A stretch of DNA of 64,000 nucleotides from Pseudochrobactrum asaccharolyticum (GTDB taxonomy: Bacteria > Pseudomonadota > Alphaproteobacteria > Rhizobiales > Rhizobiaceae), in contig NZ_QNRH01000003.1 of NCBI RefSeq assembly GCF_003314995.1, forward strand, positions 320,553-384,552. Direction: 5' to 3'. Numbering within the stretch: the first letter of the stretch is position 1; every line of letters starts with the position of its first letter. This document shows positions 1,704-58,779 of this stretch, piece after piece. The translations under genes were made by a program, and so were the position numbers. The notes below the pieces were generated by a model. It made no database searches, was not told the DNA's origin, and saw only the letters and a list, made by a program, of their open reading frames with translations.

Positions 1704-1728
1704 CAGATAGTTTTTCTGAGGCTTTGTA

Positions 1729-1830: not shown

Positions 1831-1854
1831 AAGCGCAAAAATGGGAGTGGGATA

Positions 1855-2907: not shown

Positions 2908-2935
2908 TCGAGGCTTTCGCTGAAGGGAACATGCC

Positions 2936-42501: not shown

Positions 42502-42789
42502 TTACTTACGCAGCTCTGCTTCAATTTCATCAAGAATTTTATCTTTGCCAATACCAGTGAGAAAGGCCAGACCTTTGATAACCGGTTTGGTAACAGAAGC
42601 TGAGATTGGTGTCGTTGACACGATGAAATCAACATTTTCTGCAAGGGAAGGCACCTCAGTAGCTTTCGCCTGCTGAGCGTTAAAAGTTAGTCCGCGCTTT
42701 TTCATTTCCTCAGATACAGCCGCATTGACAGCTGTTGAGGTCGCCACACCGGTGCCGCAGGCAAAGAGAATGGTTTTCTGTCTGGCCAT
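42502..42789 (-). CDS. PTS IIB subunit, galactitol type
   Basis: A 95-residue cytoplasmic phosphocarrier. The sequence KTILFACGTGVATSTAVN holds the phospho-cysteine loop (Cys12) of GatB-type IIB proteins. It receives phosphate from the IIA protein encoded next to it and passes it to the polyol entering through the IIC. Transcription order is IIC, IIA, IIB. The promoter region is shared with the DRL operon and carries the common ACAAATGTT element. Confidence 0.9.
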   Translation of the reverse strand: MARQKTILFACGTGVATSTAVNAAVSEEMKKRGLTFNAQQAKATEVPSLAENVDFIVSTTPISASVTKPVIKGLAFLTGIGKDKILDEIEAELRK

Positions 42790-42812
42790 AGGATCGTTCC
42801 TTATAATATCAA

Positions 42813-43274
42813 TTAACTGAGCAGTTTCTTGAGATCGTCTGATGTTTGTGCCAGTTTCAGACCATCAAGAATTTCCGTTGACTGAATTGCGCTCATAATG
42901 GATTGCAGTGTTTCAATCTGCTTGTCCTTATCGTCAATAGCAAGCAGGAAGACTGTGCCGACAGGTACGGTCTCATCCGGATCTTCCATATTGGCAAAAT
43001 CAACGGGGTTTCGCAGTGTTGCCATGGCAATCGCGGCTTTCAGAACATGTTCCGGATCGGTATGCGGCACAGCTACATTGTCATCACGCTCCAGTGGCAA
43101 GCCGGTGGGCATGGATTGCTCGCGTTTTACAACAGCATCGGCATAGCTGTCTTTGACATAACCGAGCTGATGCAGCCGACCGGCCAGAAGGCGGATCACC
43201 TCTTCGTTGGTTTTGGCCTCGACACCAAGAAAAACTGCATCTGGTGTCAAGGAATGAAAGAGGCTGTTTGCCAT
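42813..43274 (-). CDS. PTS IIA subunit, fructose/galactitol type
   Basis: A 153-residue IIA protein of the PTS_EIIA_2 fold. The phosphorylated histidine is in DDNVAVPHTDPEHV. The ATG at 43274 gives the normal length. The frame extends 73 codons further but overlaps the IIC gene and is not protein-like there. It should take phosphate from the HPr domain of the HPr-EI fusion encoded about 11 kb away. No PTSNtr-type neighbours are present, so a sugar-transport rather than nitrogen-regulatory role is likely. Confidence 0.88.
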   Translation of the reverse strand: MANSLFHSLTPDAVFLGVEAKTNEEVIRLLAGRLHQLGYVKDSYADAVVKREQSMPTGLPLERDDNVAVPHTDPEHVLKAAIAMATLRNPVDFANMEDPDETVPVGTVFLLAIDDKDKQIETLQSIMSAIQSTEILDGLKLAQTSDDLKKLLS

Positions 43275-43357
43275 CTTGTGTCTCCGTTCGGCTGCATTCG
43301 GGGGTGTCTCATTAACACGTACTGTGCCCCGATTGCTCGGGGCATAGTCTTCTCTGA

Positions 43358-44767
43358 TCAGGCAGATATCTGGTCTGCGGGTTCGTCCGCTGCACCGGCT
43401 GCGCGTTCCCAAGCGAGCGTATTGCGGCGATAGAGCCCAAAGAGTGCTGCTACAATCACAGCCAAGACGCCGATACCGGCAACACCAAGCCACTGGATTG
43501 CTTCAATAATGACATATGGAATCCACAGGAAGCCATCGACCACCGAAGTAATCTGCAAGGCATTGTCCGGCAGCTTGAAGCCTGAGGATACGGCGGCGCT
43601 GGTAAACAGTGGTGCCAGAGCATTCGCTACATAGAAGCCTATGGTCAGAGTGATAGTTCCGACAATAACCATACGGAACACATTGCCTTTCAAAAGCGGA
43701 GCTGTAAGCGCCACGATGAAAGGAATAACAGCAAGATCGGCGAACAGGATCACACGGTTGCCCGGCAGGATAACAGAGAGCAGGATCGCAATCGGCACAA
43801 GGATCAGTGAGGACGAGATTGCTGCCGGATGCCCGATCAGGATTGCTGAATCGAGACCGACCAGCAACTCGCGATCACCGGTACGCTTGCGCACAAATTC
43901 TTGCGCTGCATCGGATACCGGTAGCAGACCTTCCATGAGGATTTTTACCATACGCGGCAGAAGCAGCATTACTGCAGCCAGTGTCATGCCGGTGCCGAGT
44001 ATTTTTGCCAGAACCGTACCAAAATCACCGGCATTGTAAAAAGCGATGGTACCGAGAACCAGACCGATAATCAGGCCGAGGACAACCGGCTCACCAAAAA
44101 CACCAAAACGGCGCTCAATGGTTTCAGTACTGATATTGACCTTGTTGATGCCCGGAATACGATCCAGAACCCAATTAACAATAATGGCAATTGGCAGAAT
44201 TTGTGCTGAAGCAATATGTGGTACGGAAATCCCCGGCACATCATAGAATTGCTGAACAGCACGGGCTGACCAGTCGGCAAACAGCAGTGACAATGCGGCG
44301 ACCAATGCAGCAATAGCGATGCCATAGGCCAGATTGTCAGTAGCAGCCACGACAAGTGAACCAATAAATGCAAAGTGCCAGAAATTCCACACGTCTACGT
44401 TCAGGGTACGGGTCCAGCGCATCAGCAGCAGCGCAATATTAACAAGAATACCTACCGGAATAACCCAAAGTCCGACAGAAGAACCAAATGCAATGGCAGC
44501 GGCAGAAGGCCAGCCGACATCCACAATATCCCGCTTAATACCTGTATTGGTAACGATTGCCTGTGCTACCTCGCCGATTGAGGTGAACATCAATCCCAGC
44601 ACCAGATTGATACCGATAAAAGCCACGCCGATGGTAACAGCAGCACGAAAAGCTTTGCCGACCTTCGCGCCGAGGATAACGGCGATAATAAAGATTACGA
44701 TTGGCAGCAGGACTGTGGGCCCCAATGTGTCGATCGCAGATTTTAGTCCATTAAGAAATTCATTCAT
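43358..44767 (-). CDS. PTS IIC permease, galactitol type
   Basis: A 469-residue membrane protein with about 10-12 hydrophobic segments and the GatC-family features LGPTVLLPIVIFIIAVILG near the start and VGLDSAILIGHPAAISSS in the middle. It carries a polyol across the inner membrane with phosphorylation by its IIB. GatC relatives handle galactitol, arabitol and related polyols. It diverges from the DRL gene, whose product acts on a branched polyol phosphate in known cases. Confidence 0.92.
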   Translation of the reverse strand: MNEFLNGLKSAIDTLGPTVLLPIVIFIIAVILGAKVGKAFRAAVTIGVAFIGINLVLGLMFTSIGEVAQAIVTNTGIKRDIVDVGWPSAAAIAFGSSVGLWVIPVGILVNIALLLMRWTRTLNVDVWNFWHFAFIGSLVVAATDNLAYGIAIAALVAALSLLFADWSARAVQQFYDVPGISVPHIASAQILPIAIIVNWVLDRIPGINKVNISTETIERRFGVFGEPVVLGLIIGLVLGTIAFYNAGDFGTVLAKILGTGMTLAAVMLLLPRMVKILMEGLLPVSDAAQEFVRKRTGDRELLVGLDSAILIGHPAAISSSLILVPIAILLSVILPGNRVILFADLAVIPFIVALTAPLLKGNVFRMVIVGTITLTIGFYVANALAPLFTSAAVSSGFKLPDNALQITSVVDGFLWIPYVIIEAIQWLGVAGIGVLAVIVAALFGLYRRNTLAWERAAGAADEPADQISA

Positions 44768-44815
44768 ATCTCCATGCCTCCCGGGATATGTAAGAGAATT
44801 AGTATGCCGTGAACT

Positions 44816-44824
44816 AACATTTGT
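44816..44824 (-). promoter_or_regulatory. ACAAATGTT element before the galactitol-type PTS operon
   Basis: On the minus strand it reads AAAG-ACAAATGTT-AGTTCA, about 50 bp upstream of the IIC start. The same nonamer lies in the promoters of the DRL and gutM operons. Probable binding site of a SorC-family regulator. Confidence 0.5.
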
Positions 44825-45043
44825 CTTTTTATTTATACTAAAGTTTATCTGTGATATTTATGCTCAAGTCAATCGGGGCTCTTCACTCGTCTAATGGAGA
44901 GAGCAAAAATTCATGTTTCACGCGCTTTTCCTGCTGATACTAGCTCTGAAAAGGGTGTTTTGAGCGCCTGCTTTTTACGTTGCAGGGTATCCTGTGCATT
45001 TCTTGTGCGACGGTTTTGCAAATCAGGAATATGAACATAGGTA

Positions 45044-45074
45044 TTGACTTAAATACAAATGTTACTTAATCGAT
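45044..45074 (+). promoter_or_regulatory. Promoter/operator of the DRL operon
   Basis: A -35 box TTGACT (45044-45049) is followed by ACAAATGTT (45055-45063) and CTTAATCGAT. The -10 box is probably within TTAATC at 45066-45071. The whole block resembles the gutM promoter at 50846-50881, so a repressor binding between the core elements could control both. Confidence 0.6.
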
Positions 45075-45137
45075 AAGGCAAGCTGATAAAATCAGAAAGA
45101 GCGGCTGAATAAGCATAAGCGCTCACAGGAGGATTTC

Positions 45138-46457
45138 ATGACGACAAATGTTGCTCTGACAGGGCTTGCCCGCGATATGAAAGCGCGTGCGGATACCGGC
45201 CGGCCAATCCGCATTGGTTTGATCGGTTCCGGCGAAATGGGCACTGATATTGTGACCCGTGTCGCGCATATGCCAGGCATTGAAATCGGCGCAATTTCCG
45301 AACTGCGCGTGCCGAATGCGCTTAAGGCCGTAGACATTGCCTATCAGGAAAGCGGCCATGGCCGTGAAGCGAATACTGCATCCGAACTGACTGCTGCTAT
45401 GGAAGCGCATAAGGTTGCGGTGACAGATAATGCCGATCTGATCCTTGAAAATGACCTGATTGATGTTGTGATCGATGCGACCGGCGTTCCCGCTGTTGGT
45501 GCGGAAATCGGCCTGCGCGCGATGGAGCACGGCAAACATCTCGTGATGATGAATGTTGAAGCAGATGTCACCATCGGTGCCTACCTGAAAAGTGAAGCGG
45601 AGCGCCTTGGCGTTACCTATTCCCTCGGCGCCGGTGACGAGCCTTCATCTTGCATGGAATTGATTGAATTCGTTTCCGCTATGGGACATCCGATTGTTGC
45701 TGCCGGTAAAGGCAAGAACAATCCGCTCAATATTGATGCGGTGCCGGATGCCTATATGGAAGAAGCAATTCGCCGTAACATGAACGTGCGTATGCTGGTG
45801 GAATTTGTTGACGGTTCCAAAACCATGGTGGAAATGGCAGCCATTGCCAATGCCACCGGGCTGGTTCCTGATAAGGCCGGCATGCACGGTCCGGCAGCAA
45901 CACTGGACCAGCTTTCCTCCACCCTTATTCCTGAGAAAGACGGTGGTGTGCTGTCTAAGGTTGGTGTGGTCGATTATACTATCGGCAAAGGTGTTGCGCC
46001 TGGTGTGTTCGTGGTTGCTGACATGTCCCATCCGCGTATTTCTGAGCGTATGGAAGACCTTAAAATGGGCAAAGGTCCTTACTTTACCTTCCATCGTCCG
46101 TATCACCTGACGTCACTGGAAGTGCCACTGACTTGCGCACGCGTTGTCCTCTACGGCAAACCGGATATGGTGCCGTTGGATAAGCCTGTTGCTGAAGTCG
46201 CTGCCGTAGCCAAAAAAGACATGGCAATTGGTGAAAGCCTCGATGCGATCGGTGAATATTGCTACCGCGCATGGATTATGACAGCCGGTGAAGCGCGCGC
46301 TGCCAAAGCCATTCCGTGTGGCCTGCTGCAGGGCGGTACAGTAATTGCCCCGATTAAAAAGGGTGAGTTGATCACATATGCCAATGCGGCTGTGGCTCCG
46401 AATTCCAAAATTGCCGAATTGCGCGCCCGTCAGGATAAGCTCGTCTACGGCGCCTGA
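45138..46457 (+). CDS. drl: DXP reductoisomerase-like (DRL/DXR-II) oxidoreductase with SAF domain
   Basis: A 439-residue protein with an NAD(P)-binding Rossmann domain (RIGLIGSGEMGTDIV, residues about 24-38), a homoserine-dehydrogenase-like middle with NVEADVTIGAYL, SLGAGDEPSSCMELIEF and GKGKNNPLN, and a C-terminal SAF domain (about residues 345-425). This architecture is that of DRL of Brucella abortus, which interconverts 1-deoxy-D-xylulose 5-phosphate and 2-C-methyl-D-erythritol 4-phosphate. The family is often misnamed homoserine dehydrogenase or FlgA. The gene leads an operon with acetoin-dehydrogenase-like genes, so it may run in the catabolic direction here. A biosynthetic role remains possible. 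Confidence 0.85.
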   Translation: MTTNVALTGLARDMKARADTGRPIRIGLIGSGEMGTDIVTRVAHMPGIEIGAISELRVPNALKAVDIAYQESGHGREANTASELTAAMEAHKVAVTDNADLILENDLIDVVIDATGVPAVGAEIGLRAMEHGKHLVMMNVEADVTIGAYLKSEAERLGVTYSLGAGDEPSSCMELIEFVSAMGHPIVAAGKGKNNPLNIDAVPDAYMEEAIRRNMNVRMLVEFVDGSKTMVEMAAIANATGLVPDKAGMHGPAATLDQLSSTLIPEKDGGVLSKVGVVDYTIGKGVAPGVFVVADMSHPRISERMEDLKMGKGPYFTFHRPYHLTSLEVPLTCARVVLYGKPDMVPLDKPVAEVAAVAKKDMAIGESLDAIGEYCYRAWIMTAGEARAAKAIPCGLLQGGTVIAPIKKGELITYANAAVAPNSKIAELRARQDKLVYGA

Positions 46458-46541
46458 TACATCTGAATTTCGATAATACGGCGATTGCAACTTCCGGAAC
46501 CTGTCCGAAAGTCTGCAAGGTGCCTTGAGGAGTAAACTTTG

Positions 46542-47579
46542 ATGGCTCAGGTCAAAAAAGCTCAGACGGAAGACGGAGTGAAGGGCGAATTACGCAATCT
46601 GCCTTTTGCTTTCCGTGAATATTCACCGGAAAAGCTCAAAGAAGCCCTGCATAAAATGTATCTCATCCGCCGTTTTGAAGAGGGCGCAGAAGAAAGTTAT
46701 ATGCGCGGGCTGATCCACGGCACGATGCATTTGTCGATCGGGCAGGAAGCCAGCGCGATGGGGGTTTGTCTGCCGCTGGAAGACAATGACATGATCGGCT
46801 CGACCCATCGCGGCCATGGCCATTGTATTGCCAAAGGCGCTGATATCGGCCGCATGTTTGCCGAGTTTTTCGGCAAGGAAACCGGCTATTGTAAAGGCCG
46901 TGGCGGCTCCATGCATATTGCTGACGTATCCAAGGGTAATCTCGGTGCCAATGGTATTGTCGGTGGAGGCATTCCGATTGCTGTTGGTGCTGCGCTTTCT
47001 GCCAAGAAGCAGAAAAACGGTAAAGTCGTAATTTCCTTCTTTGGTGACGGTGCAAACAATGAAGGCGCCTTCCACGAAGCACTGAATATGGCCTCTGTCT
47101 GGAAATTGCCGGTGGTGTTTGTTTGTGAAAACAACGGTTATGGCATGTCGACATCGACCAAACGCTCGACGGCAGTTGAAAATATTGCCGACCGCGCTGT
47201 CGCTTATAATATGCCGGGCGTAATCGTTGACGGGAACAATCTTTCCGATGTTGCCGAAGCCACCCATGAGGCGGTTGAACGTGCCCGTCGCGGTGAGGGG
47301 CCGACGCTGATTGAGAATAAGACATATCGTCTGCGCGGTCATTCCAAGAGTGATCGCAATCGTTACCGCACCAAGGAAGAGATCGAGGACTGGGCGACCA
47401 ATCGTGATCCGATCGCCCGTTTCGAGGCCGATCTGAAGGAATACGGCTTCATCAATGATGCCGAGATTGAAACAATCCGCACCACTGTCGAAAAAGAGAT
47501 CGCAGACGCAATCGAGTTCGCCAAGAACAGCCCAGCGCCTGACCTTCATAATCTGACACGCGACGTATACACGGACTGA
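46542..47579 (+). CDS. acoA: TPP-dependent dehydrogenase E1 alpha subunit (acetoin dehydrogenase type)
   Basis: A 345-residue E1 alpha subunit. The ThDP motif is [19 protein letters not shown]...[34 protein letters not shown] and the phosphorylation-loop region [14 protein letters not shown] are as in AcoA and PdhA proteins. The ATG at 46542 has TGAGGAG upstream. With the beta subunit it decarboxylates a 2-oxo acid or cleaves a 2-hydroxy-ketone such as acetoin. It lies 84 bp after drl and 5 bp before the beta gene. The E2 partner points to the acetoin class. Confidence 0.88.
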
Positions 47580-47584
47580 TAAAT

Positions 47585-48583
47585 ATGAGCACGACAACCC
47601 GTGAGTTGAGCTATTCACAGGCTATTCAGGAAGCCATGGCCATTGCTATGGAACGCGATGACCGCGTGTTTCTGATGGGTGAAGATATCGGTGTGTATGG
47701 CGGTGCCTTTCAGGTTACCGGTGATCTGGTACACCGTTTCGGTGAAGATCGCGTTATGGATACGCCGATCTCCGAACTTGGCGGAGCCGGTGTGGCCGTC
47801 GGTGCGGCGCTGACCGGTATGCGCCCGATTTTTGAGTTTCAGTTCTCCGATTTTGCCGCGCTGGCGCTGGAGCAGATCGTCAATCAGGCCGCAAAAATCC
47901 GCTACATGCTGGGCGGTGCGGTTTCTGTACCTCTGGTGATGCGTTTTCCTGCGGGTTCGGGCACTGGTGCCGCAGCGCAGCACAGCCAGAGTATTGAGGC
48001 ATGGCTTGGCCATGTGCCGGGTTTGAAAGTCGTTCAGCCTGCAACGCCTTATGACATGAAAGGCATGTTGCTGGCCGCCGTTGAAGACCCTGATCCGGTG
48101 ATGATTTTCGAGCACAAGCTGCTTTACAAGATGAAGGGCGAAGTGCCAGAAGGTTATTACACGGTTCCGCTCAACAAGGCGAAAGTGGTGCGTGAAGGCA
48201 CAGACCTTACTATCGTCGCCTCGGCGATCATGGTGCATAAGGCACTGGATGCAGCGACAGAACTTGCCAAAGAAGGCATCAATGTTGAAGTGATTGATCT
48301 GCGCTCGGTGCGCCCGATTGACCGTGAAACCATCATTGCAAGTGTCAAAAAAACATCAAAGCTGATGTGCGTTTACGAAGCGGTGAAAACGCTGGGTATT
48401 GGTGCGGAAATCAGTGCTCTTGTCGCTGAAAGCGATGCATTCGATTATCTGGATGCGCCGATTGTGCGTCTGGGCGGGGCGGAAACGCCGATCCCGTATA
48501 ATCCGGATCTGGAACGTGCAACGGTGCCACAGGTACCAGATATCCTGAAAAGTGCGCGTGAACTTGTGAAGGGAGCTCGCTAG
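47585..48583 (+). CDS. acoB: TPP-dependent dehydrogenase E1 beta subunit (acetoin dehydrogenase type)
   Basis: A 332-residue transketolase-like protein with [58 protein letters not shown] and the C-terminal [16 protein letters not shown] region. It forms the heterotetramer with the alpha subunit encoded 5 bp upstream. The next gene starts 2 bp after its stop. The beta family does not by itself separate pyruvate, branched-chain and acetoin substrates. Confidence 0.9.
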
Positions 48584-48585
48584 TC

Positions 48586-49926
48586 ATGGCTGTCGAAGTC
48601 ATCCTGCCTAAAGTTGATATGGATATGGAGACCGGCCAGATTTCGCGTTGGTACGCCAAGGATGGCGATACGGTCACCAAAGGACAATTGCTGTTTGAGA
48701 TTGAGACCGATAAAGCGGCCATGGAAGTGGACGCTCCAGCTTCCGGTATTCTCGGTGATGTTTCTGCCGCAGAAGGCGCTGTGGTTCCTGTTGGTCAGGC
48801 AGTTGCGTGGATTTATGCGGAAGGTGAAGAGCGCAAGGGCGGAAATGCCACTGCCGCTGAGACTGCAATTGTCGCGGAAGCAGCTGTCTCAGCACCAATA
48901 ACCTCTGTTGCACTGCCGGAAGTTACCCTCGCTCCGGTTGTGCTGGCAGAAGATTCCGGTGTGCGGGCAACGCCTTTGGCGCGCCGTCTGGCACGTGAGG
49001 CCGGTCTTGATCTGAATACGGTTGCGGGCTCAGGTCCTAAAGGCCGTATCCAGAAAAAAGACGTCGAAGCATGTCTGGCCACAGTTGCGCCTGCCGCAGG
49101 TGTAACGCAACCTGTTGCCATACCTGCGCCACGCCCGGTTGCAGTGTCTCAGACTGAGGGTATATTGAATGCCACATGGTTGCGGCAGGGTGAAGCCGGA
49201 TATTTGCCAATCGTGCTGATCCACGGTTTTGCCTCCGATCTCAACAGCTGGCGTATGCTGTTGGCCGGTAGCAACCTTCGCAATCCGGTGCTGGCACTTG
49301 ATCTGCCTGCGCATGGTCAGTCGCCGCGTTATGTGCCGGATAGTATCGACATGATTGCTGCGGCGGTTGAGACGACTCTAACTGCGCATAATGTGGGATC
49401 ATGCATTCTCGTTGGTCATTCGATGGGCGGTGCGGTGGCGACTGTTACCGCTGCGCGTGGCTTTACGGATGTGCGCTCACTGGTACTGATCTCCTCAGCC
49501 GGTCTGGGGCCACAGATCAACGGGGCTTTCCTTGAAGGGCTGGTGCGGGCGAAATCTGAGGCCAGTGTAACGCCTTGGCTCAAAGAGCTGTTTGCCGATG
49601 AAGCACTGCTGTCAAAAGCCTTCATCAATGCAACTGTTGCACAGGCGAATGATGCTGAACTACGTAATGCGCAGGCAGGCATGGCGGCACAGCTTTGCAC
49701 TGACGGTACACAAACCTTTGAAATCCGCTCAAGCCTTGCGCAATTGAATATTCCGGTGCGTCTGATCTTCGGTGCACAGGATCGTATTATTCCGGTTGCT
49801 CATGCGTCCGGTTTGCCGGGTGAAATCGGTGTGCATGTATTCCAAAAATGCGGACATATGCCTCAGATTGAACAGCGCGATGCCGTACTGCGTATCATCA
49901 GCGAGTGCAGCAAAGCCGCACATTAG
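48586..49926 (+). CDS. acoC: Lipoyl-domain alpha/beta-hydrolase E2 component (AcoC type)
   Basis: A 446-residue fusion. Residues 1-80 form a lipoyl domain with [17 protein letters not shown] (Lys carries lipoate). Residues about 125-160 form a subunit-binding domain ([15 protein letters not shown], then [15 protein letters not shown]). Residues about 200-445 form an alpha/beta hydrolase with [12 protein letters not shown], nucleophile Ser in [10 protein letters not shown] and a C-terminal GHMPQ His. This replaces the usual CAT-type acyltransferase domain and is the hallmark of AcoC in acetoin dehydrogenase complexes. It transfers the acyl group to CoA. No E3 gene is nearby. Confidence 0.9.
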
Positions 49927-49930
49927 AACG

Positions 49931-49960
49931 CGCTTCGATCTGATTGGATCAGATCGGCGC
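49931..49960. repeat. Small palindromic intergenic element
   Basis: CGATCTGA and TCAGATCG form an 8-bp stem around TTGGA, flanked by GCGC on both sides. It resembles the small REP-like palindromes scattered between genes in Brucellaceae. It lies just after the acoC stop. Confidence 0.4.
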
Positions 49961-50020
49961 TCTAAACCTGCAGATAACAGACCGCACACCGTTCCCTCTG
50001 TCCGGTCTGTATTCTGATCA

Positions 50021-50060
50021 CACTCCGGATAATTGTCATGATTATCCGGAGTGCTTTTTA
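50021..50060 (+). terminator. Rho-independent terminator of the drl-aco operon
   Basis: CACTCCGGATAAT and ATTATCCGGAGTG form a perfect 13-bp stem with a 7-nt loop, followed by CTTTTTATT. It ends the operon before the convergent hypothetical gene. Confidence 0.88.
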
Positions 50061-50065
50061 TTAGC

Positions 50066-50716
50066 TTAATTATGTGAAGGTTCTGTGAGCGCAGATGCGG
50101 GATGATCTGCTCCGAGTGCGCGTTGTACGGCTGCGCGGGCGGAAGCAAAATCAGGCATCACCCAATTAGGCTCTTGACCCAGAAACTTATCGAGAAAAGC
50201 AATGGCAAAGCCCGGCATCTCCGATGCATTTTCACGATAAGTCCACCATGTGCGCAGATCACTGGCACTTTGGTCGATATCAGGGCTGGTGCCGAACTCC
50301 TGTTCCTGCACGGCAGCAATCGCGCAGATGCAGTAGTTGGTATAAAGGAAACCCTCCGGCCAAAAACGGATGATTTCAGTTAAATTTTCAAGCTCACCGC
50401 TCAGTTCGTTGTCGGATGGATTTACGGCTTTTGCGGGTGCGAGACGGATCAATTCTTTCAGAACCAGACCGGCTGCAAAAATAATGAAATCTTTCCGGTC
50501 AACAGCCGCGTAATGCTTGTTCTGATTGACCAGCTCAATCCAGTTCAGAAAGGCTTCAGTCAGACGTTTTTCATCAATATCATAACGCACACCGGTCATT
50601 TCGGAGATCAGATTGGCATGTTTGCGCAAAGTCGCCCGAAACCAGCGTAACTGACGCAGCCTGTGGCGTAGATCAGGTACATTTGCCATCTGGTTTTTGA
50701 ACAGCAGATCCATCAT
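50066..50716 (-). CDS. Conserved-looking hypothetical protein
   Basis: A 216-residue soluble protein that I do not recognise. It is mostly helical in appearance, rich in Trp and charged residues (HRLRQLRWFRATLRK, LNWIELVNQNKHYAAVDRKDF, DLRTWWTYRENA). No signal peptide or membrane segment is seen. It sits on the opposite strand between the drl-aco operon and the gutM operon, so it interrupts the cluster and may be a modulator or an unrelated insertion. Codon use looks like its neighbours. The start at 50716 (MMDLL) is preceded by AAGAAAGAGCTC. Confidence 0.7.
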   Translation of the reverse strand: MMDLLFKNQMANVPDLRHRLRQLRWFRATLRKHANLISEMTGVRYDIDEKRLTEAFLNWIELVNQNKHYAAVDRKDFIIFAAGLVLKELIRLAPAKAVNPSDNELSGELENLTEIIRFWPEGFLYTNYCICAIAAVQEQEFGTSPDIDQSASDLRTWWTYRENASEMPGFAIAFLDKFLGQEPNWVMPDFASARAAVQRALGADHPASALTEPSHN

Positions 50717-50845
50717 GAGCTCTTTCTTGTATGCTGACTTTTATGCGGGCACTTCATTGACAGCAATCATAAGCGATGACAGGAGAAATGTCATTGCTAT
50801 TCGCTGGAACAATCGCTGTGTTCTGCTGGCTTTAAATTATACATA

Positions 50846-50881
50846 TTGACATTTAAAAAAACAAATGTTCTTTAATTCGAT
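50846..50881 (+). promoter_or_regulatory. Promoter/operator of the gutM PTS operon
   Basis: A -35 box TTGACA (50846-50851) is followed by ACAAATGTT (50861-50869) and CTTTAATTCGAT. It matches the DRL promoter at most positions, indicating control by the same regulator. Confidence 0.6.
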
Positions 50882-50929
50882 CAGGAGAATACTCCGGAAA
50901 GATAGAGGAGCAACCGGAGGAGATATCAT

Positions 50930-51364
50930 ATGGCGATATGGCAATGGGCATTATTGGCATTGGCATTGCTGTGGGGATTCCAGTCGCTCGGTGTCTGGTT
51001 TCAGATGCGCCACTATACGGATGTCATGAAAGGCATCAGTAACAAATACAAGGACGGATATGTTGGTGCAGGCCATGTGCGCGGGCGTTTCGGCAAAGGC
51101 GTTATTGTATTAATTGTGGTGGATGAGGATCGGGTCGTACGCAGGTTTTTGGAGATGAGCGGGCGTACGGTCTTCGTTAAATTTATTCGTCAGGAAGCCT
51201 TTGAAGGTCTGACATTGGCGCAGCTTCGCGAGCAGCTTGAACAGGATAAATTTCAGCCTGCTGTAGCACATGCGGTGCGTTCTGCCATTGAACAGGCGGA
51301 GAGACTGGCGGAGCAGTCAGATGGCGGGGAGGGGCTGACCGGTCTGAAACCGGTGAAAGCCTAG
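50930..51364 (+). CDS. gutM: Glucitol operon activator GutM family
   Basis: A 144-residue protein with one N-terminal membrane segment (WALLALALLWGFQSLGVWFQM) and a cytoplasmic part with DGYVGAGHVRGRFGKGVIVLIVVDEDRVV. GutM proteins accompany glucitol-type PTS genes and act as an activator or accessory factor. GGAGGAGATATC precedes the ATG. It is the first gene of the glucitol-type PTS operon. Confidence 0.88.
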   Translation: MAIWQWALLALALLWGFQSLGVWFQMRHYTDVMKGISNKYKDGYVGAGHVRGRFGKGVIVLIVVDEDRVVRRFLEMSGRTVFVKFIRQEAFEGLTLAQLREQLEQDKFQPAVAHAVRSAIEQAERLAEQSDGGEGLTGLKPVKA

Positions 51365-51419
51365 CTTATAGAATTTATAGGGGAGGCCGCATCAAAAATG
51401 CGGTAATCAGGGAGGTAAT

Positions 51420-52217
51420 ATGTCTATTACAGCAATGTTGGCGCAACATGCCGACGTCACTATGCAATCCCTGCATCATGCGGGCGGGCTGGTGTCCGAT
51501 GCAGTCCTGAACAGCGGATTGCATGGAAAAATGACGGCGCAAAACAGCATCAATGACTTTGTGGTGCTGGCGCAGGCAACCACAGACACGGGCGCAGCGG
51601 CAGCGAGTGATAATATCACCGTTGATCAGTTTCGCGAACGTCTGCAAAATGTGCAGCAGGAAGAACAACTGGGTTGGCTGACGGCGCTCGGCAAACACTT
51701 TATCGGTGTTTTCCAGAAGGGCGGCGAAGTACTGACCGGTTTTGTTACCGGCATTATTCCGACTCTTATCGTGCTGATGACGGCTTTTTACGCGATCACT
51801 GAACTGGTGGGCGAAAAGCGCGTGCATGGTCTGGCGCGCGGTGCCGGTCGTATTGCGCTGACACGTTATACCGTGTTGCCGCTGCTGTCGGTGTTCTTTC
51901 TCACGAATCCGATGGCCTATACATTCGGCTCGTTTCTGGAAGAAAAGCACAAGCCTGCCTTCTATGATGCTGCTGTTTCCTATGTACATCCGCCGCTTGG
52001 CCTGTTTCCGCATATCAATCCGGGCGAATATTTCGTCTGGGGCGGCATTCTGGTCGCACTGATGGAGCTGGAAAAGAAGGGCGCAGTTCCGGGCGGATAT
52101 CACATCACTGTAGCGATCTGGTACGCACTGGTCGGTCTCGTGGTGATCCTGCTTAAAGGCATGCTGACAGAACGCATTACAGCCATTATGGCGCGCCGTC
52201 AGGGCATTGAGCTCTGA
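51420..52217 (+). CDS. srlA: PTS IIC subunit, glucitol/sorbitol type (SrlA), extended N terminus
   Basis: From about residue 85 the protein follows the SrlA family: FIGVFQKGGEVLTGFVTGIIPTLI, FLTNPMAYTFGSFLEEKHKPAFYDA, GLFPHINPGEYFVWGGI. It has about four to five hydrophobic segments. At 265 residues it is some 75-80 longer than E. coli SrlA, the excess being a soluble N-terminal extension rich in His, Gln and Ala. The sequence around the ATG (GGGAGGTAAT before it) supports the long start. It forms the membrane channel with SrlE. Confidence 0.88.
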   Translation: MSITAMLAQHADVTMQSLHHAGGLVSDAVLNSGLHGKMTAQNSINDFVVLAQATTDTGAAAASDNITVDQFRERLQNVQQEEQLGWLTALGKHFIGVFQKGGEVLTGFVTGIIPTLIVLMTAFYAITELVGEKRVHGLARGAGRIALTRYTVLPLLSVFFLTNPMAYTFGSFLEEKHKPAFYDAAVSYVHPPLGLFPHINPGEYFVWGGILVALMELEKKGAVPGGYHITVAIWYALVGLVVILLKGMLTERITAIMARRQGIEL

Positions 52218-52234
52218 GAAGCGGGAGGGGAAAA

Positions 52235-53224
52235 ATGGCGAAATCCTATAAGTCCGTAACAATTCAGGCTGGTTCCGGCGGCTGGGGCGGCCCGCTGACT
52301 ATTCAGCCAACTGAACAGCGTAATAAAGTCGTTTCGGTTACAGGTGGCGGTATTCATCCGATTGCCCGTCAGATCGCTGATATAACCGGCGCAGAAGCGG
52401 TAGACGGCTTCAAAGCACCGCCGATTGAAAGCGAAATGGCTGTGGTGGTCGTGGATTGCGGTGGCACCGCGCGTTGTGGTGTCTATCCGCGTAAGCGTAT
52501 ACCTACCATCAATGTCATGCCTGTCGGCCAGTCCGGCCCGCTCGCGCAATATATTACCGAGGATATTTATGTATCGGGTGTAAAACCTGAAAATATTACA
52601 ATCTCCGATGGTTCTGCTCCCGCAGCATCTGCTACGCAGACAATGCATGAAACACCGGTTACAGCTCCTGTTGAGCAGCCGTCGGAAGGCGGTATTATCG
52701 GACTGATCAGCAGTGTTGGTCGCGTGATGGGTGGTATTGTCGGTGTGTTCTTCAATGCCGGTCGCCGCACTATTGATCAGGTTATCCGTAACGTGCTGCC
52801 ATTTATGGCCTTTGTTACCATGCTGATCGGTTTCATCCTCTATACCGGCATTGGTGATATTCTTGCTCAGCCTCTGGGGCCTCTCGCCAATAATATTATC
52901 GGTCTTCTGATCCTGTCTGCGATTTGCGGATTACCGTTCTTGTCTCCGGTGCTCGGACCCGGTGCGGTCATCGCGCAGGTGGTTGGTGTGGCGATCATCG
53001 GCCCGCAGATTGCCAATGGTACAATTGCACCGGCAATGGCTCTGCCAGCCTTGTTTGCCTATAACACGCAAGTCGGTTGTGACTTCGTGCCGGTTGGTCT
53101 GGCACTGGGAGAAGCCAAGCCTAAAACTATTGAGATCGGTGTTCCGGCGGTTCTGATCAGCCGCCAGATCATGGGGCCGGTTTCTGTGCTGATTGCATGG
53201 GCTGTCAGCCTGTTGGTTCTTTAA
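52235..53224 (+). CDS. srlE: PTS IIBC subunit, glucitol/sorbitol type (SrlE)
   Basis: A 329-residue protein. An N-terminal IIB domain begins YKSVTIQAGSGGWGGPLTI and includes VVVDCGGTARCGVYPRKRIPTINV with cysteines, one being the likely phosphorylation site. A linker about 150-170 rich in Ala, Pro and Glu is followed by a C-terminal membrane part (about five segments) with ILSAICGLPFLSPVLGPGAVIAQVVG and NTQVGCDFVPVGLALGEAKPKT. Length is as in E. coli SrlE. It takes phosphate from SrlB and phosphorylates the entering polyol. Confidence 0.92.
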   Translation: MAKSYKSVTIQAGSGGWGGPLTIQPTEQRNKVVSVTGGGIHPIARQIADITGAEAVDGFKAPPIESEMAVVVVDCGGTARCGVYPRKRIPTINVMPVGQSGPLAQYITEDIYVSGVKPENITISDGSAPAASATQTMHETPVTAPVEQPSEGGIIGLISSVGRVMGGIVGVFFNAGRRTIDQVIRNVLPFMAFVTMLIGFILYTGIGDILAQPLGPLANNIIGLLILSAICGLPFLSPVLGPGAVIAQVVGVAIIGPQIANGTIAPAMALPALFAYNTQVGCDFVPVGLALGEAKPKTIEIGVPAVLISRQIMGPVSVLIAWAVSLLVL

Positions 53225-53232
53225 ATATACAG

Positions 53233-53265
53233 AGAGCGGTTTGGTCGCTAATGACCGGCCGCTCT
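53233..53265 (+). other. Intergenic hairpin between srlE and srlB
   Basis: AGAGCGG and CCGCTCT form the outer stem and GGTC/GACC an inner one, in the 82-bp srlE-srlB spacer. No T-run follows, so it may tune srlB and ptsI expression by mRNA processing. Confidence 0.4.
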
Positions 53266-53306
53266 TCAATAAAGATATGAAATATTGACTGAAAGGTACC
53301 GCTATT

Positions 53307-53687
53307 ATGACAATTTCTCTGAATACGCGGGTGACTGCTGTAGGGCCTGAAGTAGCGGATCTGGCTGAAGGCGGCGTTGTTATTCTGTTTGCTGACGGTT
53401 CCCCGTCAGAACTGGCTGAAGTTTCCGTTCTGCATGCGATTACAGCAGAGCCATCGGCTGAAGCACCGGTCACCGGTGCAACGATCAGCATTGGTTCACT
53501 TGAGGCAAAAATCACCTCTGTCGGTGCCAGCGCATGGCAAAAAGTACTTGATATCGGCCATGTGGTGATTTCGTTTAACGGTGCTGATAATGCCGAGCGT
53601 CCGGGTGAAATCTGCGCCTCTGAAGTGGATACAGAAGTGCTGGTTGCGCAGTTGCAGGCCGGTGCCAACATTATCATTCGCGCATAA
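53307..53687 (+). CDS. srlB: PTS IIA subunit, glucitol/sorbitol type (SrlB)
   Basis: A 126-residue cytoplasmic phosphocarrier of the PTSIIA_gutA family, close to the E. coli SrlB length of 123. It has FADGSPSELAEVSVLHAI with the likely active-site His, and the closing KVLDIGHVVISFNGADNAERPGEICA. It accepts phosphate from the HPr domain encoded 31 bp downstream and hands it to SrlE. Confidence 0.9.
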   Translation: MTISLNTRVTAVGPEVADLAEGGVVILFADGSPSELAEVSVLHAITAEPSAEAPVTGATISIGSLEAKITSVGASAWQKVLDIGHVVISFNGADNAERPGEICASEVDTEVLVAQLQAGANIIIRA

Positions 53688-53718
53688 TATTGAAAAGCAT
53701 TGAGACAGGTATAGCATC

Positions 53719-55689
53719 ATGGAACGCTCGACAATCGTACGGGTGCATGAAGGATTGCATGCACGACCGGCTACCCGCTTTGTAAAGCTTGCCAAAGGCT
53801 TTGAAGCGGACATTGAGATTGCGAAAGCGGGTAAGAGCGTCAGTGCAAAAAGCTCTGTCAAACTCATGCTGCTCGGTGTGAAAGAAAATGACACTGTGAC
53901 CATACGGGCTGACGGCGCTGATGCTATTGAAGCGCTGGAGGCGCTGATTGGCTATCTGGAAAATCCGTTGTCAGGGTTGGAAGATCATGCTGACGCGCCC
54001 GTTGCTTCCGGTGCGGCTGTCTCTGTTGAAAACAAAGCACCGGTAATTCCTATAGGACAACCGGATGAGACCGGTTTTATCTCCGGCATTGCTGCCAGTG
54101 AAGGCATGGCTCTTGGTGCAGCCTATCCATTTTTTTCGCCGGAAATTACCGCCGATAACCGGATGCTGAAACCGGAGGAAATACCGGCAGAGTTGCAACG
54201 GTTCCATGAGGCCGTTGCCTGTGTTCAGCAGCGTATGGATGCGGAACTGCAAGCGGATAATCTTGCCGAAAGTGATCGCGGTATTATTGCAGCGCTGAAA
54301 GATATTGCCGCAGATGAAGTTTTGCTGGACGAAGCAAAGGGTCTGATCCGTGGCGGGCTGGATGCTCTCTCTGCCATGCTTGGTGCCAGTGCTGCGGTTG
54401 CCCGTCAGTTTTCAGAGATCGATGATCCTTACCTCAATGCGCGTGCTGATGATGTGCAGGCTGTTGGTCGTCAGATTTGTCTGGCGCTGCTCGGGCAGCA
54501 GGATATCAGTCTCGAAGCGCTGCCGTATGGTGCAATCCTGATTGCTGAGGATATCGGCGCATGGGATTTTGCCCGTGCACCTTTGAAAAAGATTGGCGCG
54601 ATTGTCTGTGGTCATGGCGGGGCAACGTCTCATGTGGCCATCATTGCACGCACACATGGTATTCCTGCTGTTTTGGGGCTTGGCAAGGCAATATATCAGC
54701 TCAAAGATGTAAAACAGATCGCTGTTGATGGTAGCAAAGGCCGCGTTGCGCCTGAGCCTGATGCACTTATTCGCACAGGTTTTGAACAGGGTATTGCAGC
54801 GGCTAAAGCTGAAAAGCTGGCTCTGGAAGTCTATCGCACTCTGATCCCGCAGCGTGCCGATGGCGTGGTGATTGAGATTGCCGCCAATCTCGGTGCTCTG
54901 GAAGAGATTGAAGTGGCGCAAGCCGCCGGTGCAATGGGCGTTGGTTTGTTTCGCACTGAACTCTTGTTTATGAAACATATGCATCTGCCGTCTGAGGATA
55001 TGCAGACGGAAACCTATGCTGCTTTACTCAAGGCCTTTGCGCCTTATTCTGTGATTGTCCGTACGCTGGATATTGGTGGTGATAAGCCGGTTGCCGGTAT
55101 TGAATTTCCGCAGGAGGAAAATCCGTTTCTCGGCTGGCGCGGTATTCGTATGTGCCTCGACAGGCCGGATATTTTCAAGCCGCAACTGCGCGCTTTATTG
55201 CGCGCGGCGGTTCACGGTAAACTCAAAGTCATGCTGCCGATGATCTCGGACGCGGGAGAAATTCGCGCAACGAAAACCCTGATTGAAACTTGCAGGCAAG
55301 AGCTGATCGGTGAGGGGAAAGCTTGCGGTGAATTTGAACTGGGTGTGATGATTGAAACACCTGCAGCCGTTTTTGCTGCCCGCCAGCTGGCTCAGGAAGC
55401 GGCTTTTTTCTCAATCGGCACCAATGATCTGACGCAATATGTCATGGCCGCAGACCGGTTGAACCCGACCGTCGCTAAGCTGAATGATGTATCGCATCCT
55501 GCGGTGATGGCGGCCATTGAGATGACGGCAAAAGCAGCAAACGAAGCCGGAATTATGGTGGGGATGTGTGGTGAGGCGGCTGCACGACCGGATTTGATCG
55601 CGGAATTTATCCGCATGGGGCTGACGGAGCTGAGCATGAGCCCTGCCTCAATCCCGCGCGCAAAAAAGCTTATTTCCGAACTGAACTAA
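53719..55689 (+). CDS. HPr-Enzyme I fusion of the phosphotransferase system
   Basis: A 656-residue two-module protein. Residues 1-88 are HPr with phosphorylated His14 (EGLHARPATRF) and the Ser-containing AKSSVKLMLLGV segment. After a linker (about 90-110), residues 115-656 are Enzyme I: SGIAASEGMALGAAYPF, the phospho-His in GHGGATSHVAIIARTHG, VGLFRTELLFM, and the PEP site FSIGTNDLTQYVMAADR. No GAF domain is present, which sets it apart from PtsP/EINtr. It draws phosphate from PEP to drive both PTS permeases here. Confidence 0.93.
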   Translation: MERSTIVRVHEGLHARPATRFVKLAKGFEADIEIAKAGKSVSAKSSVKLMLLGVKENDTVTIRADGADAIEALEALIGYLENPLSGLEDHADAPVASGAAVSVENKAPVIPIGQPDETGFISGIAASEGMALGAAYPFFSPEITADNRMLKPEEIPAELQRFHEAVACVQQRMDAELQADNLAESDRGIIAALKDIAADEVLLDEAKGLIRGGLDALSAMLGASAAVARQFSEIDDPYLNARADDVQAVGRQICLALLGQQDISLEALPYGAILIAEDIGAWDFARAPLKKIGAIVCGHGGATSHVAIIARTHGIPAVLGLGKAIYQLKDVKQIAVDGSKGRVAPEPDALIRTGFEQGIAAAKAEKLALEVYRTLIPQRADGVVIEIAANLGALEEIEVAQAAGAMGVGLFRTELLFMKHMHLPSEDMQTETYAALLKAFAPYSVIVRTLDIGGDKPVAGIEFPQEENPFLGWRGIRMCLDRPDIFKPQLRALLRAAVHGKLKVMLPMISDAGEIRATKTLIETCRQELIGEGKACGEFELGVMIETPAAVFAARQLAQEAAFFSIGTNDLTQYVMAADRLNPTVAKLNDVSHPAVMAAIEMTAKAANEAGIMVGMCGEAAARPDLIAEFIRMGLTELSMSPASIPRAKKLISELN

Positions 55690-55734: not shown

Positions 55735-56487
55735 TTACGGCAAGTGAAAAATCAGTGTAGCGAAGAGCTTTTGCAGAGCAACGCTATCATTCTGACTGAC
55801 GCCTTCAATAATACGATCTTCACGCGCTTCAACAGCCAGCAATGCACTTTCCAGATTGTCGATATTTTCCATATCGGCAGGTTTTGCCGTTGCTAATGCA
55901 CAGGCCAGTGCAATGGCTGCAAAGCCGCTGATCATTGCAGATTTTGACAAGGTGCCTGACTGGCGTACCGGTTGTTGCCGCAACATTTCCTGAAACAGTG
56001 TCGTACACAGCTTGGCACTTTGCTGGATAATATCGGTTGCCGGATCTTGCAGGCGGGCAATATCGGCGCCATGCTGTTGTTTGATCCGCGTATAAACGGT
56101 CTTGAAAACGGCTTCCTGAATCAGCAGGTTTTCGGCTTTATACCGGTGCAGAACGGCTTTCGTAAGGTAATACATATCACGGTGAAATGCCCGCTGTCCT
56201 TCAGAACTACCGTTAAAGTAAAAGCTTAAACTCCGGACATCCGGCGCGGTTTCATGAATGGACGGATTGTCCGAGACAAGGGATATGGAAATCGTTTCGG
56301 CAGTGCTGAACGCCTTATCCATAACCGTTGCCGCCACATGCGCCGCACGGTTCATAACAAGTTCAGGCAGAACTACAGATTTTTCAGCTGGCTGCTGACC
56401 ATAACGGGTGTGTCGCAGAGCATAGCGCAAACCGCGCAGCTTATCTTTAATGCTAACGGCGATGTCGTTGGGAATGTCCTGATGCAT
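55735..56487 (-). CDS. Hypothetical protein with one possible membrane segment
   Basis: A 250-residue protein that I do not recognise. It has a basic N-terminal third, a serine-rich middle (SISLVSDNPSIHETAPDVRSLSFYF) and a hydrophobic stretch near residues 185-205 (SAMISGFAAIALACALATA) that could be a membrane helix. An acidic tail follows. It is convergent with the HPr-EI gene and divergent from the first SorC-family regulator. No function is proposed. Confidence 0.65.
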   Translation of the reverse strand: MHQDIPNDIAVSIKDKLRGLRYALRHTRYGQQPAEKSVVLPELVMNRAAHVAATVMDKAFSTAETISISLVSDNPSIHETAPDVRSLSFYFNGSSEGQRAFHRDMYYLTKAVLHRYKAENLLIQEAVFKTVYTRIKQQHGADIARLQDPATDIIQQSAKLCTTLFQEMLRQQPVRQSGTLSKSAMISGFAAIALACALATAKPADMENIDNLESALLAVEAREDRIIEGVSQNDSVALQKLFATLIFHLP

Positions 56488-56651: not shown

Positions 56652-57686
56652 TTGAAAAGCACGAAACGTAAGTCGGGAACACCTCAGGAAGCAATTGAAC
56701 TTATCGTCGGATCAGAGAGCGTTGCCAGTGAGAATAAGACAAACCGGCTACGTACCCGAGCAGCCTGGATGTATTATGTCGAGCAAATGACCCAGAACGA
56801 TATTGCCGATGTTCTGGGCGTTGGCCGTGTAACGATTGTCCGCCTGCTGGCTGAAGCGCGGGCGCGCAATGAAGTGAAAATTACCATTGAAGGCAAGCTG
56901 GCCGGTCTGACAGCACTGGAGCGGATGCTGGAGCAGACATTCGGGTTGGAGCGCGCAATTGTAGCTCCGTTATCGACGCCGGACACTGATCCGGTAGCGC
57001 CGATTGCGGCGGCGACCGGCGCTTATCTTTCGGAGAAAGTACAGCATGGTATGCGTATTGGCGTTGGCTGGGGGCGGACATTATCCGGCACCTTGCAACA
57101 TATCGGTGCGCGTAATCTCAATGATCTTAAAGTCATTTCGCTGCTTGGCGGGATCGCGCAGCCGCGCCGTTTCAACCCGCCGGAATTTGCCTGGCAGTTT
57201 GCGCAGATTTTTCAGGGGGAGGGCTATCTGATCCCGGCGCCGGCTCTGGTCGACAGCAAAGAAACCCGTGAGGCTTTGATTGAGCGTTGCGGGCTGAAAG
57301 ATGTTTTCGAAATGGCTGATGATCTGGATATGGTTCTGCTCAGCATTGGTGGCATTGAGACTGCCAGCAGCACATCTTATCGCGTTGGTCTGATTGATGA
57401 TGTGCAGAAGCGCTCATTGCTCGAAAATGGTGCGGTCGGCGATATGCTGTTTCATTTCTATGATTGCAACGGCGAGATAGTGTCCGATCCGGTGCATGAG
57501 CGGGTGATGTCGGTCAGCATGGATAAGCTGCAAAAAGCGCCTATACGTATTCTCACCTCCGGCGGGCCGGAAAAAGTTGCAGCGCTGCTCGGCGCGATGA
57601 AACTGCTGAAACCGACGGTCTTTATTACCGACGAGGTGAGCGCGGCGGCAATGCTGACCAGAATACAGGCGGAAAATGCCGGATAA
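56652..57686 (+). CDS. SorC/DeoR-type sugar-binding transcriptional regulator, copy 1
   Basis: A 344-residue regulator. An N-terminal HTH (MYYVEQMTQNDIADVLGVGRVTIVRLLAEAR, residues about 37-68) is followed by a sugar-phosphate-binding domain (IGVGWGRTLSGTLQH, VISLLGGIAQPR, FITDEVSAAAMLTR). This is the family of SorC and of EryD, the Brucella erythritol regulator. The TTG start is preceded by GGGGAA. I infer it controls the ACAAATGTT sites of the PTS, DRL and gut operons with a polyol phosphate as effector. Copy 2 could do so instead. Confidence 0.9.
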   Translation: MKSTKRKSGTPQEAIELIVGSESVASENKTNRLRTRAAWMYYVEQMTQNDIADVLGVGRVTIVRLLAEARARNEVKITIEGKLAGLTALERMLEQTFGLERAIVAPLSTPDTDPVAPIAAATGAYLSEKVQHGMRIGVGWGRTLSGTLQHIGARNLNDLKVISLLGGIAQPRRFNPPEFAWQFAQIFQGEGYLIPAPALVDSKETREALIERCGLKDVFEMADDLDMVLLSIGGIETASSTSYRVGLIDDVQKRSLLENGAVGDMLFHFYDCNGEIVSDPVHERVMSVSMDKLQKAPIRILTSGGPEKVAALLGAMKLLKPTVFITDEVSAAAMLTRIQAENAG

Positions 57687-58676: not shown

Positions 58677-58779
58677 TCTTCTACCTTTTATGTCTTTTTC
58701 ACACAAAGCATTATCTGTCATCTGTTTGTGATAATGGCGTGATATCAGTGCAAAGGTCAAGATTTCTCTAAAAACATAT

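Follow-up and report, generated by a model that had tools for sequence, protein, structure and literature searches.

Why should a gene for a DXR-II-type oxidoreductase (DRL) stand in an operon with genes resembling those of acetoin dehydrogenase, beside genes for the import of polyols? This question is raised by a stretch of 64,000 nucleotides of Pseudochrobactrum asaccharolyticum (hereafter the window), which is part of a 4.65 Mb alphaproteobacterial genome in 39 contigs. The genes in question behave as one unit. This is very likely a catabolic unit acting through DRL and a dedicated E1-E2 complex, because drl and acoABC are linked across genomes, a shared motif precedes drl and the import genes, the phosphotransferase system (PTS) is exchanged in other loci for an ATP-binding cassette (ABC) importer plus kinase, a spare DRL or DXR-I accompanies the linked drl, and the E1 belongs to a clade of its own. 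We think it fairly probable that the genes form a single regulon, in which a 2-C-methyltetritol is taken up as 2-C-methyl-D-erythritol 4-phosphate (MEP), DRL working in reverse makes 1-deoxy-D-xylulose 5-phosphate (DXP), and AcoABC cleaves DXP into acetyl-CoA and glyceraldehyde 3-phosphate.

Organization of the cluster and its conservation

Two polyol-type PTSs, a fusion of HPr with enzyme I (EI), a DRL and AcoA/AcoB/AcoC-like subunits had been read in this cluster from the sequence alone, and every gene so named was found to be present as an intact frame. The gatB-gatA-gatC genes on the minus strand diverge from drl-acoA-acoB-acoC on the plus strand; after acoC come a gene without assigned function (minus), gutM-srlA-srlE-srlB-HPr-EI (plus), a second gene without assigned function (minus) and two SorC-type regulator genes. 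These last four genes (the two without assigned function and the two regulators) belong to or adjoin the cluster. The gaps are 5 bp between acoA and acoB and 2 bp between acoB and acoC. The HPr motif GLHARPA, the EI motif GGATSHVAI, the lipoyl-lysine motif of the E2 and one GatB cysteine are intact. The features are as follows (EII, enzyme II of the PTS; TPP, thiamine pyrophosphate):

42502..42789, minus: galactitol-type PTS EIIB (GatB-like); PF02302, E 3.4e-10; NCBIfam galactitol model 41 bits, cut-off 95
42813..43280, minus: PTS EIIA (GatA-like); PF00359, E 1.7e-33; start picked within a longer frame
43358..44767, minus: galactitol-type PTS EIIC (GatC-like); PF03611, E 3.7e-86; TIGR00827 440 bits, cut-off 542
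44810..44825, minus: candidate operator-like site before gatC; 1 mismatch to the lax pattern, weak alone
45044..45063 (45054-45070 in another scan), plus: operator-like site TTGAC-N6-ACAAATGTT before drl; one of two exact matches in the genome
45138..46457, plus: drl, DXR-II-type oxidoreductase; DRL_cat PF21135, E 1.1e-66; 76% identity to PDB 3UPL
46539..47579, plus: acoA-like TPP-dependent E1 alpha; PF00676, E 1.9e-94; in a clade of its own
47585..48583, plus: acoB-like E1 beta; PF02779 and PF02780
48586..49926, plus: acoC-like E2 with lipoyl, E3-binding and alpha/beta-hydrolase domains; PF00364, PF02817, PF00561; NF011457 430 bits, cut-off 307
50066..50716, minus: conserved protein without assigned function; tblastn relatives above 30% identity in 33 loci; no Pfam family over cut-off
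50846..50869, plus: operator-like site TTGAC-N10-ACAAATGTT before gutM; the other exact match
50930..51364, plus: gutM; PF06923, E 6.3e-25
51420..52217, plus: srlA, glucitol-type PTS EIIC; NF049923 184 bits, cut-off 150
52235..53224, plus: srlE, glucitol-type PTS EIIBC; NF049924 449 bits, cut-off 400
53307..53687, plus: srlB, glucitol-type PTS EIIA; TIGR00849, E 9.5e-17, 61 bits, cut-off 190
53719..55689, plus: HPr-EI fusion; TIGR01417 448 bits, cut-off 342; TIGR01003 80 bits, cut-off 48
55735..56487, minus: conserved, mostly helical protein without assigned function; relatives in 11 loci; no Pfam match over cut-off, no PDB match at E ≤ 0.001
56652..57686, plus: SorC/DeoR/LsrR-type sugar-binding regulator; NF053881, E 1e-54, below cut-off
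57696..58787, minus: second SorC-type regulator; NF053881, E 1.5e-61, below cut-off; membership in the unit uncertain

The linkage of drl with acoABC recurs in both sets of loci analyzed. In the genome_contigs scan, which retained the top 80 out of at least 583 drl matches, 67 loci have acoA on the strand of drl and within 400 bp downstream of it, and the other 13 can be taken as real negatives since each has at least 5 kb of downstream sequence. The closest named DRL relatives among these 80 belong to a metagenome-assembled genome labeled 'Brucellaceae bacterium' (98% identity) and to Brucella/Ochrobactrum species (92-93%). The order was sampled evenly with 297 genomes. A search for DRL at E ≤ 1e-60, in which no more than 5 candidates were scored for each genome, yielded 71 matches with 50% identity or more, distributed over 55 genomes; 21 of the 70 loci examined, the window's own being left out, are aco-linked, and these are carried by 20 genomes. 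Members of the AcoA family (E ≤ 1e-100, with up to 7 candidates scored for each genome) were found in 27 of the 297 genomes, of which 26 hold a DRL with at least 50% identity, as compared with 55 of 297 overall (hypergeometric p 5e-21, kinship ignored). Of the 28 AcoA copies, 22 are immediate neighbors of drl, and another, that of G266, lies within 8 kb of it in the same cluster. A contig edge in G162 (58% complete) begins with acoABC, the gene without assigned function and the gut PTS; the AcoA of G257, a 53% relative, is located elsewhere than drl. Within the genus, represented by 7 genomes including that of the window, comparison with three relatives (dS 0.4-1.0) gave ratios of nonsynonymous to synonymous substitution rates (dN/dS) of 0.008-0.022 (drl), 0.011-0.035 (acoA) and 0.011-0.015 (acoB), as expected for a working set of genes.

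The operator-like site, which starts with a -35-like TTGAC, precedes both drl and gutM in the window. Since a reversed control pattern also gave two matches in the genome, it is the position of the two exact copies that counts and not their number. Having been recognized in the window, the motif was counted at other loci with a laxer pattern (TTGA[C/T]-N3..12-ACANATGTT within 300 bp upstream, with mononucleotide shuffles as control). It was detected upstream of 72 of the 88 aco-linked drl genes versus 1 of the 62 unlinked ones (L024), and upstream of 25 of the 30 gutM genes versus none of 7500 shuffled upstream regions. In the genus it precedes 3/3 cluster drl, 3/3 gutM and 0/4 standalone drl genes, and it is absent upstream of the standalone drl of the window's genome; a simpler scorer put another site above the drl site in two of the genus relatives, the drl site being present in all three. 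The lax pattern behind the gatC site has 18 matches in the window at up to 3 mismatches, 10.8 being expected. The gene set is thus probably under joint control, as judged from these sites, and the regulator encoded at 56652..57686, which stays beside the cluster in the genus and in Brucella/Ochrobactrum loci, is likely to be that of the unit.

The import genes differ among the linked loci. Nine of the order's 21 carry the gut PTS, nine others an ABC importer and/or a PfkB kinase, and three neither, two of these having less than 3 kb of downstream sequence; among the 67 linked genome_contigs loci, 26 carry the gut PTS. The gut PTS and a kinase occur together in no locus of either set. On rhizobial plasmids, the drl-acoA-acoB-E2 core is accompanied by a SorC-type regulator, a carbohydrate ABC importer and a PfkB or 'sugar' kinase; behind the E2 gene stand lpdA (E3) and lipA on plasmids of S. 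meliloti Rm41 and A. tumefaciens, and lpdA with a class II fructose-bisphosphate aldolase gene on that of R. sophoriradicis. In the S. meliloti cluster, the E2 belongs to the CoA acyltransferases (PF00198). Both PTSs are present in the drl-aco cluster of Rhizobium sp. L51/94. Behind that of M. jarvisii lies an aminoethylphosphonate-type ABC importer, scoring below the curated cut-offs, which could take up a ready phosphate ester. Since the PTS is swapped with an importer plus kinase, the common outcome is a phosphorylated substrate inside the cell, which DRL needs; import with phosphorylation thus looks like the common step of the linked loci. The relatives of the protein at 50066..50716 travel with both PTS-type and ABC-type loci. 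In the window, SrlA and SrlE exceed their NCBIfam equivalog cut-offs and are predicted to form a glucitol-type PTS; GatA (72 bits, cut-off 139), GatB and GatC all fall below the equivalog or subfamily cut-offs.

Two side observations concern the same genes. A thiC-thiO-thiS-thiazole synthase-thiamine phosphate synthase-thiD operon (L089, 18817-24026) adjoins the cluster of Rhizobium sp. L51/94, and E1 enzymes need TPP. In L145, L146 and L151 (group g3, the window's family), galactitol-type PTS genes lie beside a second, unlinked drl (67% identity), which is an independent pairing of a PTS with drl.

The E1 component and the proposed route

AcoA and AcoB match the E1 alpha and beta chains of the pyruvate dehydrogenase (PDH)/acetoin dehydrogenase family. 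In a tree built by a quick method, with some long branches and a contrast of four acetoin and two PDH-like rows, the cluster E1 alpha chains form one clade (29 rows, SH-aLRT 98), apart from the E1 of acetoin clusters (4 rows, 94) and from the two PDH-like E1 of the genome; the nearest outgroup is an E1 of C. difficile (support 85). The PDH-like E1 alpha/beta pair of the genome is encoded elsewhere. At 1498-2532 of another locus (L093) there is a PDH-like E1 alpha, with no E1 beta match in the 3.9 kb examined.

The residues of the E1 were compared with those of three acetoin clusters and of two (alpha) or one (beta) PDH chains. T62, M63 and S66 are common to the 92 cluster E1 alpha rows, where the acetoin and PDH chains have F, I/V/C and Y, so that the pocket motif reads HGTMHLS in the cluster and GFxHLY in the acetoin and PDH enzymes. 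In the loop GHS-K/R-S-D-R-N-R-Y-R, residues R273, N274 and R275 are invariant (92/92) and position 270 is K in 86 rows and R in 6; at positions 270, 273, 274 and 275 the acetoin E1 has E, P/A, G/Q and L/T, and the PDH E1 has M, P, A and K. This basic loop aligns with phosphorylation loop A of human PDH, which we take to sit at the substrate channel. Residues Q86, S88, K182 and K268 are invariant in 90 cluster E1 beta rows. A wider and more basic pocket, as suggested by these alignments, would accommodate a five-carbon ketose phosphate more readily than pyruvate or acetoin.

A row of genes in C. difficile NZ_CP149680.1 (L196, L202) comprises a SorC-type regulator, E1 alpha/beta, E2, lpdA, a sigma-54-interacting regulator, a galactitol-type PTS, a class II aldolase and a lipoate ligase. 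HGTxHLS and GHSKSD, two motifs of the drl-linked clade, recur in its E1; the annotation shows no drl at this place, and the cluster may degrade another phospho-ketose.

DXP has the pattern CH3-CO-CH(OH)-R, which is the type of compound cleaved by acetoin dehydrogenases. We propose that the substrate is a branched polyol with five carbons, 2-C-methyl-D-erythritol or a close relative being the most likely, and that it would enter through the glucitol-type PTS as the 4-phosphate (MEP), the phosphoryl group being supplied by the cluster's own HPr-EI; the galactitol-type PTS may admit a second substrate into the same route. DRL run backwards would turn MEP into DXP. In the AcoAB E1, TPP would add to the C2 ketone of DXP, the C2-C3 bond would be split and D-glyceraldehyde 3-phosphate released, and the acetyl group would be handed to CoA via the lipoyl arm of the E2. 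The lipoyl group would be reoxidized by an E3 from elsewhere in the genome, none being encoded within the cluster and no genome-wide search having been made for one. Reactions of the DXR type are reversible, with MEP favored, and the exergonic last step, oxidative cleavage to acetyl-CoA, would pull this unfavorable equilibrium. A SorC-type regulator that recognizes the common TTGAC-N-ACAAATGTT sites would turn drl-acoABC and gutM-srlAEB-EI on and off in concert. According to excerpts of PMC3424233, purified PDH forms 1-deoxyxylulose from pyruvate and D-glyceraldehyde, and mutants of the E. coli PDH E1 allow the production of DXP in vivo, by a reaction which the authors call unknown; Yokota and Sasajima 1986 is cited there on PDH and acetoin dehydrogenase. 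By analogy, this would be the making of the same bond that AcoAB would split.

The same enzymes might instead handle a 2-C-(hydroxymethyl)tetritol of the apiitol type, giving glycolyl-CoA and triose phosphate via a pentulose phosphate, or 2-C-methylthreitol. The transporters give no substrate, the E1 pocket motif is unlike that of acetoin and PDH enzymes, and in Ligilactobacillus salivarius drl and the gut PTS are coupled to fructose-6-phosphate aldolase and transketolase, all of which would suit this alternative; the E1 relatives PDH and acetoin dehydrogenase, however, presumably carry acetyl units, and the DXR-II residues for MEP and DXP are kept. We regard another polyol as unlikely, and the balance tilts towards a 2-C-methyltetritol being the substrate and DXP the intermediate that is cleaved.

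DRL and the supply of isoprenoids

The window's DRL reaches 224 bits with the DRL_cat model (Pfam cut-off 27). It is identical to the crystallized Brucella abortus enzyme (PDB 3UPL) at 11 of 11 sites checked; the residues K191, K193, T229, H250, R320, Y322 and G121, named in PMC3847144, are the same in both proteins. Going by close relatives reported to be functional, it should interconvert DXP and MEP. Since the substrate-site residues K191, K193 and T229 are kept equally in the aco-linked (88/88) and unlinked (62/62) copies, the chemistry of DRL should be unchanged in the linked ones.

Three DRL_cat proteins are encoded in the window's genome, in which DXR-I was not found: the cluster DRL, a standalone DRL (L126) 87% identical to it, the gene of which adjoins a HAD phosphatase gene, and a DLO-type paralogue (L003, 33% identity) departing from the DXR-II residues at T229, H250 and R320. 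As dxs (E 6e-121) and ispF are present, the MEP pathway seems to be in use and to need one of the two close DRLs. In the order, 46 of the 55 genomes with a DRL (at least 50% identity) have no DXR-I, from which it follows that DRL usually carries isoprenoid synthesis. A second DRL or a DXR-I was found in 17 of the 21 genomes with an aco-linked drl, the window's included, versus 6 of the 34 without (p 4.5e-6, kinship ignored), G266, where drl and acoABC are 8 kb apart, being placed among the 34. Four genomes (G023, G116, G134, G172) have DXR-I plus a linked drl only, and G183 has two linked drl genes and no DXR-I. The presence of DXR-I, the second enzymes and the drl-acoA adjacency per genome were counted by hand from listings.

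Some observations were made along with these counts. In G300, of the same genus and 99% complete, neither DRL nor DXR-I was seen, and an assembly gap, a masked stretch or a third type of enzyme is possible. The DLO-type paralogue at 973-3092 of its locus is followed by another frame. A sarcosine-dehydrogenase/GcvT-like protein (39988-42429 in the window) directly precedes the cluster; similar matches (25-30% identity) some kb before the standalone drl are probably due to chance.

These data bear on isoprenoid salvage or supply, in which DRL would be biosynthetic, the PTS would import methylerythritol as MEP for the MEP pathway, and AcoABC would be an unrelated acetoin or pyruvate dehydrogenase. 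The replacement of DXR-I by DRL in most holders, the presence of dxs and ispF, and three genomes where a linked drl is the sole MEP-forming enzyme found would agree with it, but position, motif and co-occurrence all connect AcoABC with drl, most linked genomes have a spare enzyme, and salvage requires neither DRL nor an E1-E2-E3 complex. In PMC3847144, functional DXR-II is moreover reported in Chloroflexus, which has only the mevalonate pathway, and in Finegoldia, in which neither pathway was found. We consider salvage rather improbable. It is very improbable that AcoAB is a second DXP synthase, joining pyruvate and glyceraldehyde 3-phosphate into DXP which DRL would convert into MEP as another entry to isoprenoids: PDH E1 mutants can supply DXP in E. 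coli (excerpts of PMC3424233), but the genome has a normal dxs, and the E2, E3 and LipA partners and the sugar importer would make no sense. Plain catabolism of acetoin or 2,3-butanediol beside an unrelated polyol operon, as accidental neighbors, is hardly credible, the E2 being of the acetoin type by NCBIfam, but the E1 of contrast acetoin clusters falling in another clade and those clusters (Acinetobacter, Mycetohabitans and Paracoccus, with Enterococcus by reading frames) holding butanediol/acetoin dehydrogenases, a gene annotated as NAD kinase, which we take to be AcoX, or sigma-54 regulators, when no butanediol/acetoin dehydrogenase, AcoX or AcoR was found among the 20 proteins scanned at 38.9-60.7 kb of the window, no genome-wide search having been made.

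Several points weigh against the catabolic route through DXP. As many as 38 of the 67 linked genome_contigs loci are without a gut or gat PTS, a matching ABC importer or a kinase; 21 of these have less than 5 kb of downstream sequence, and the 17 with the full 10 kb count against it. The motif is missing before 16 of the 88 linked drl genes (8 of the ABC/kinase type, 3 of a distant drl branch and 5 others). G085, G188 and G264 have one linked drl and no DXR-I; if the assemblies are complete, the linked drl must do both jobs in these genomes and in G183, being of the sole MEP-forming type found. acoABC stands apart from drl in G210 and G282, and also in G155, where it adjoins the gut PTS. Many of the loci counted are close relatives, and up to 5 DRL and 7 AcoA candidates were scored per genome. 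The E1 residue argument is an alignment with few contrast chains, and wild-type E. coli PDH is reported to yield too little DXP to replace DXS (excerpts of PMC3424233). A SorC-drl-gutM-srlAEB set occurs without acoABC in Listeria innocua, and L. salivarius has SorC, drl and the gut PTS in another gene order, likewise without acoABC. The substrate, the reverse direction of DRL, the cleavage of DXP and the identity of the regulator are all inferred. What stands of the methylerythritol system proposed from the sequence alone is therefore a catabolic system with one route via DRL and the AcoABC-type complex, as indicated by linkage, motif, PTS exchange, spare enzymes and E1 clade; methylerythritol, reverse DRL and DXP cleavage are still at the stage of inference.

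As Bacillota sets exist without acoABC, the tie between DRL and the polyol PTS is older or more general than that with AcoABC. In L. salivarius (L085, 7995-15566), drl and the gut PTS are followed by fructose-6-phosphate aldolase and transketolase genes, possibly another way to break down the DRL product. A DRL tree was built by a quick method from the 75 rows left when sequences with the same label had been thinned at 90% identity; its outgroup branch is very long. It requires 11 changes of aco-linkage, spread over three separate regions, and well supported branches call for at least 7. The standalone drl of the window's genome groups with the cluster drl (98) among the rows kept, closer orthologues having been thinned out, and linked drl genes make up 17 of the 22 rows of the clade around the two. 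Copies freed from the operon and kept for biosynthesis would fit this tree, the counts giving no direction of change. A broader possibility, to which we give slightly less than even chances, is that DXR-II was catabolic at its root, turning environmental 2-C-methyltetritols into acetyl-CoA and triose phosphate via reverse DRL and a DXP-cleaving E1-E2-E3 complex (a 'DXP dehydrogenase'), and that its isoprenoid use in place of DXR-I was a later takeover by freed copies such as the standalone drl of the window's genome.

Significance and comparison with known systems

The sequence-only reading knew of no described pathway of this kind; likewise, no such pathway, and no route from MEP-type compounds back to central metabolism, was found in the literature searched. 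If our proposal is true, it would provide such a route, could account for the existence of DXR in two unrelated forms, and would explain functional DXR-II in genomes without the rest of the MEP pathway. It would also answer a question posed in PMC3847144, namely the origin of redundant DXR-II in organisms already holding DXR-I. The environmental 2-C-methyltetritols concerned are plant methylerythritol and the 2-methyltetrols of isoprene aerosol, which were measured with isoprene aerosol markers (PMC7377252, in excerpt); a biological sink would be predicted for both. The conserved gene set occurs in soil and plant-associated bacteria, and its E1-E2 complex would provide isoprenoid engineering with a candidate enzyme for splitting DXP. 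The presence of drl by itself does not tell in which process the gene is employed, a point of importance when the MEP pathway is targeted with drugs.

Among the known systems, the galactitol PTS has GatA, GatB and GatC homologues in the window, all three of which score below the NCBIfam cut-offs. With the glucitol/sorbitol PTS operon of E. coli, which we take to be srlAEBD-gutM, the window shares gutM, srlA, srlE and srlB; unlike that operon, it has its own HPr-EI fusion and a DRL in the dehydrogenase's place, no SrlD-type dehydrogenase being present among the 20 window proteins scanned. Acetoin dehydrogenase AcoABC is alike in its E1 alpha, E1 beta and alpha/beta-hydrolase-type E2, whereas the window's E1 belongs to its own clade, has an altered pocket motif and a more basic loop, and is linked to drl. 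The DRL of Brucella abortus (PDB 3UPL, 3UPY) and the DXR-II family described in PMC3847144 have the same domains as the window's DRL; the window differs from them in that its drl shares an operon with acoABC, next to genes of polyol PTSs and with a common motif upstream, in that its genome has a standalone second drl, and in that the direction proposed for the reaction is reversed.

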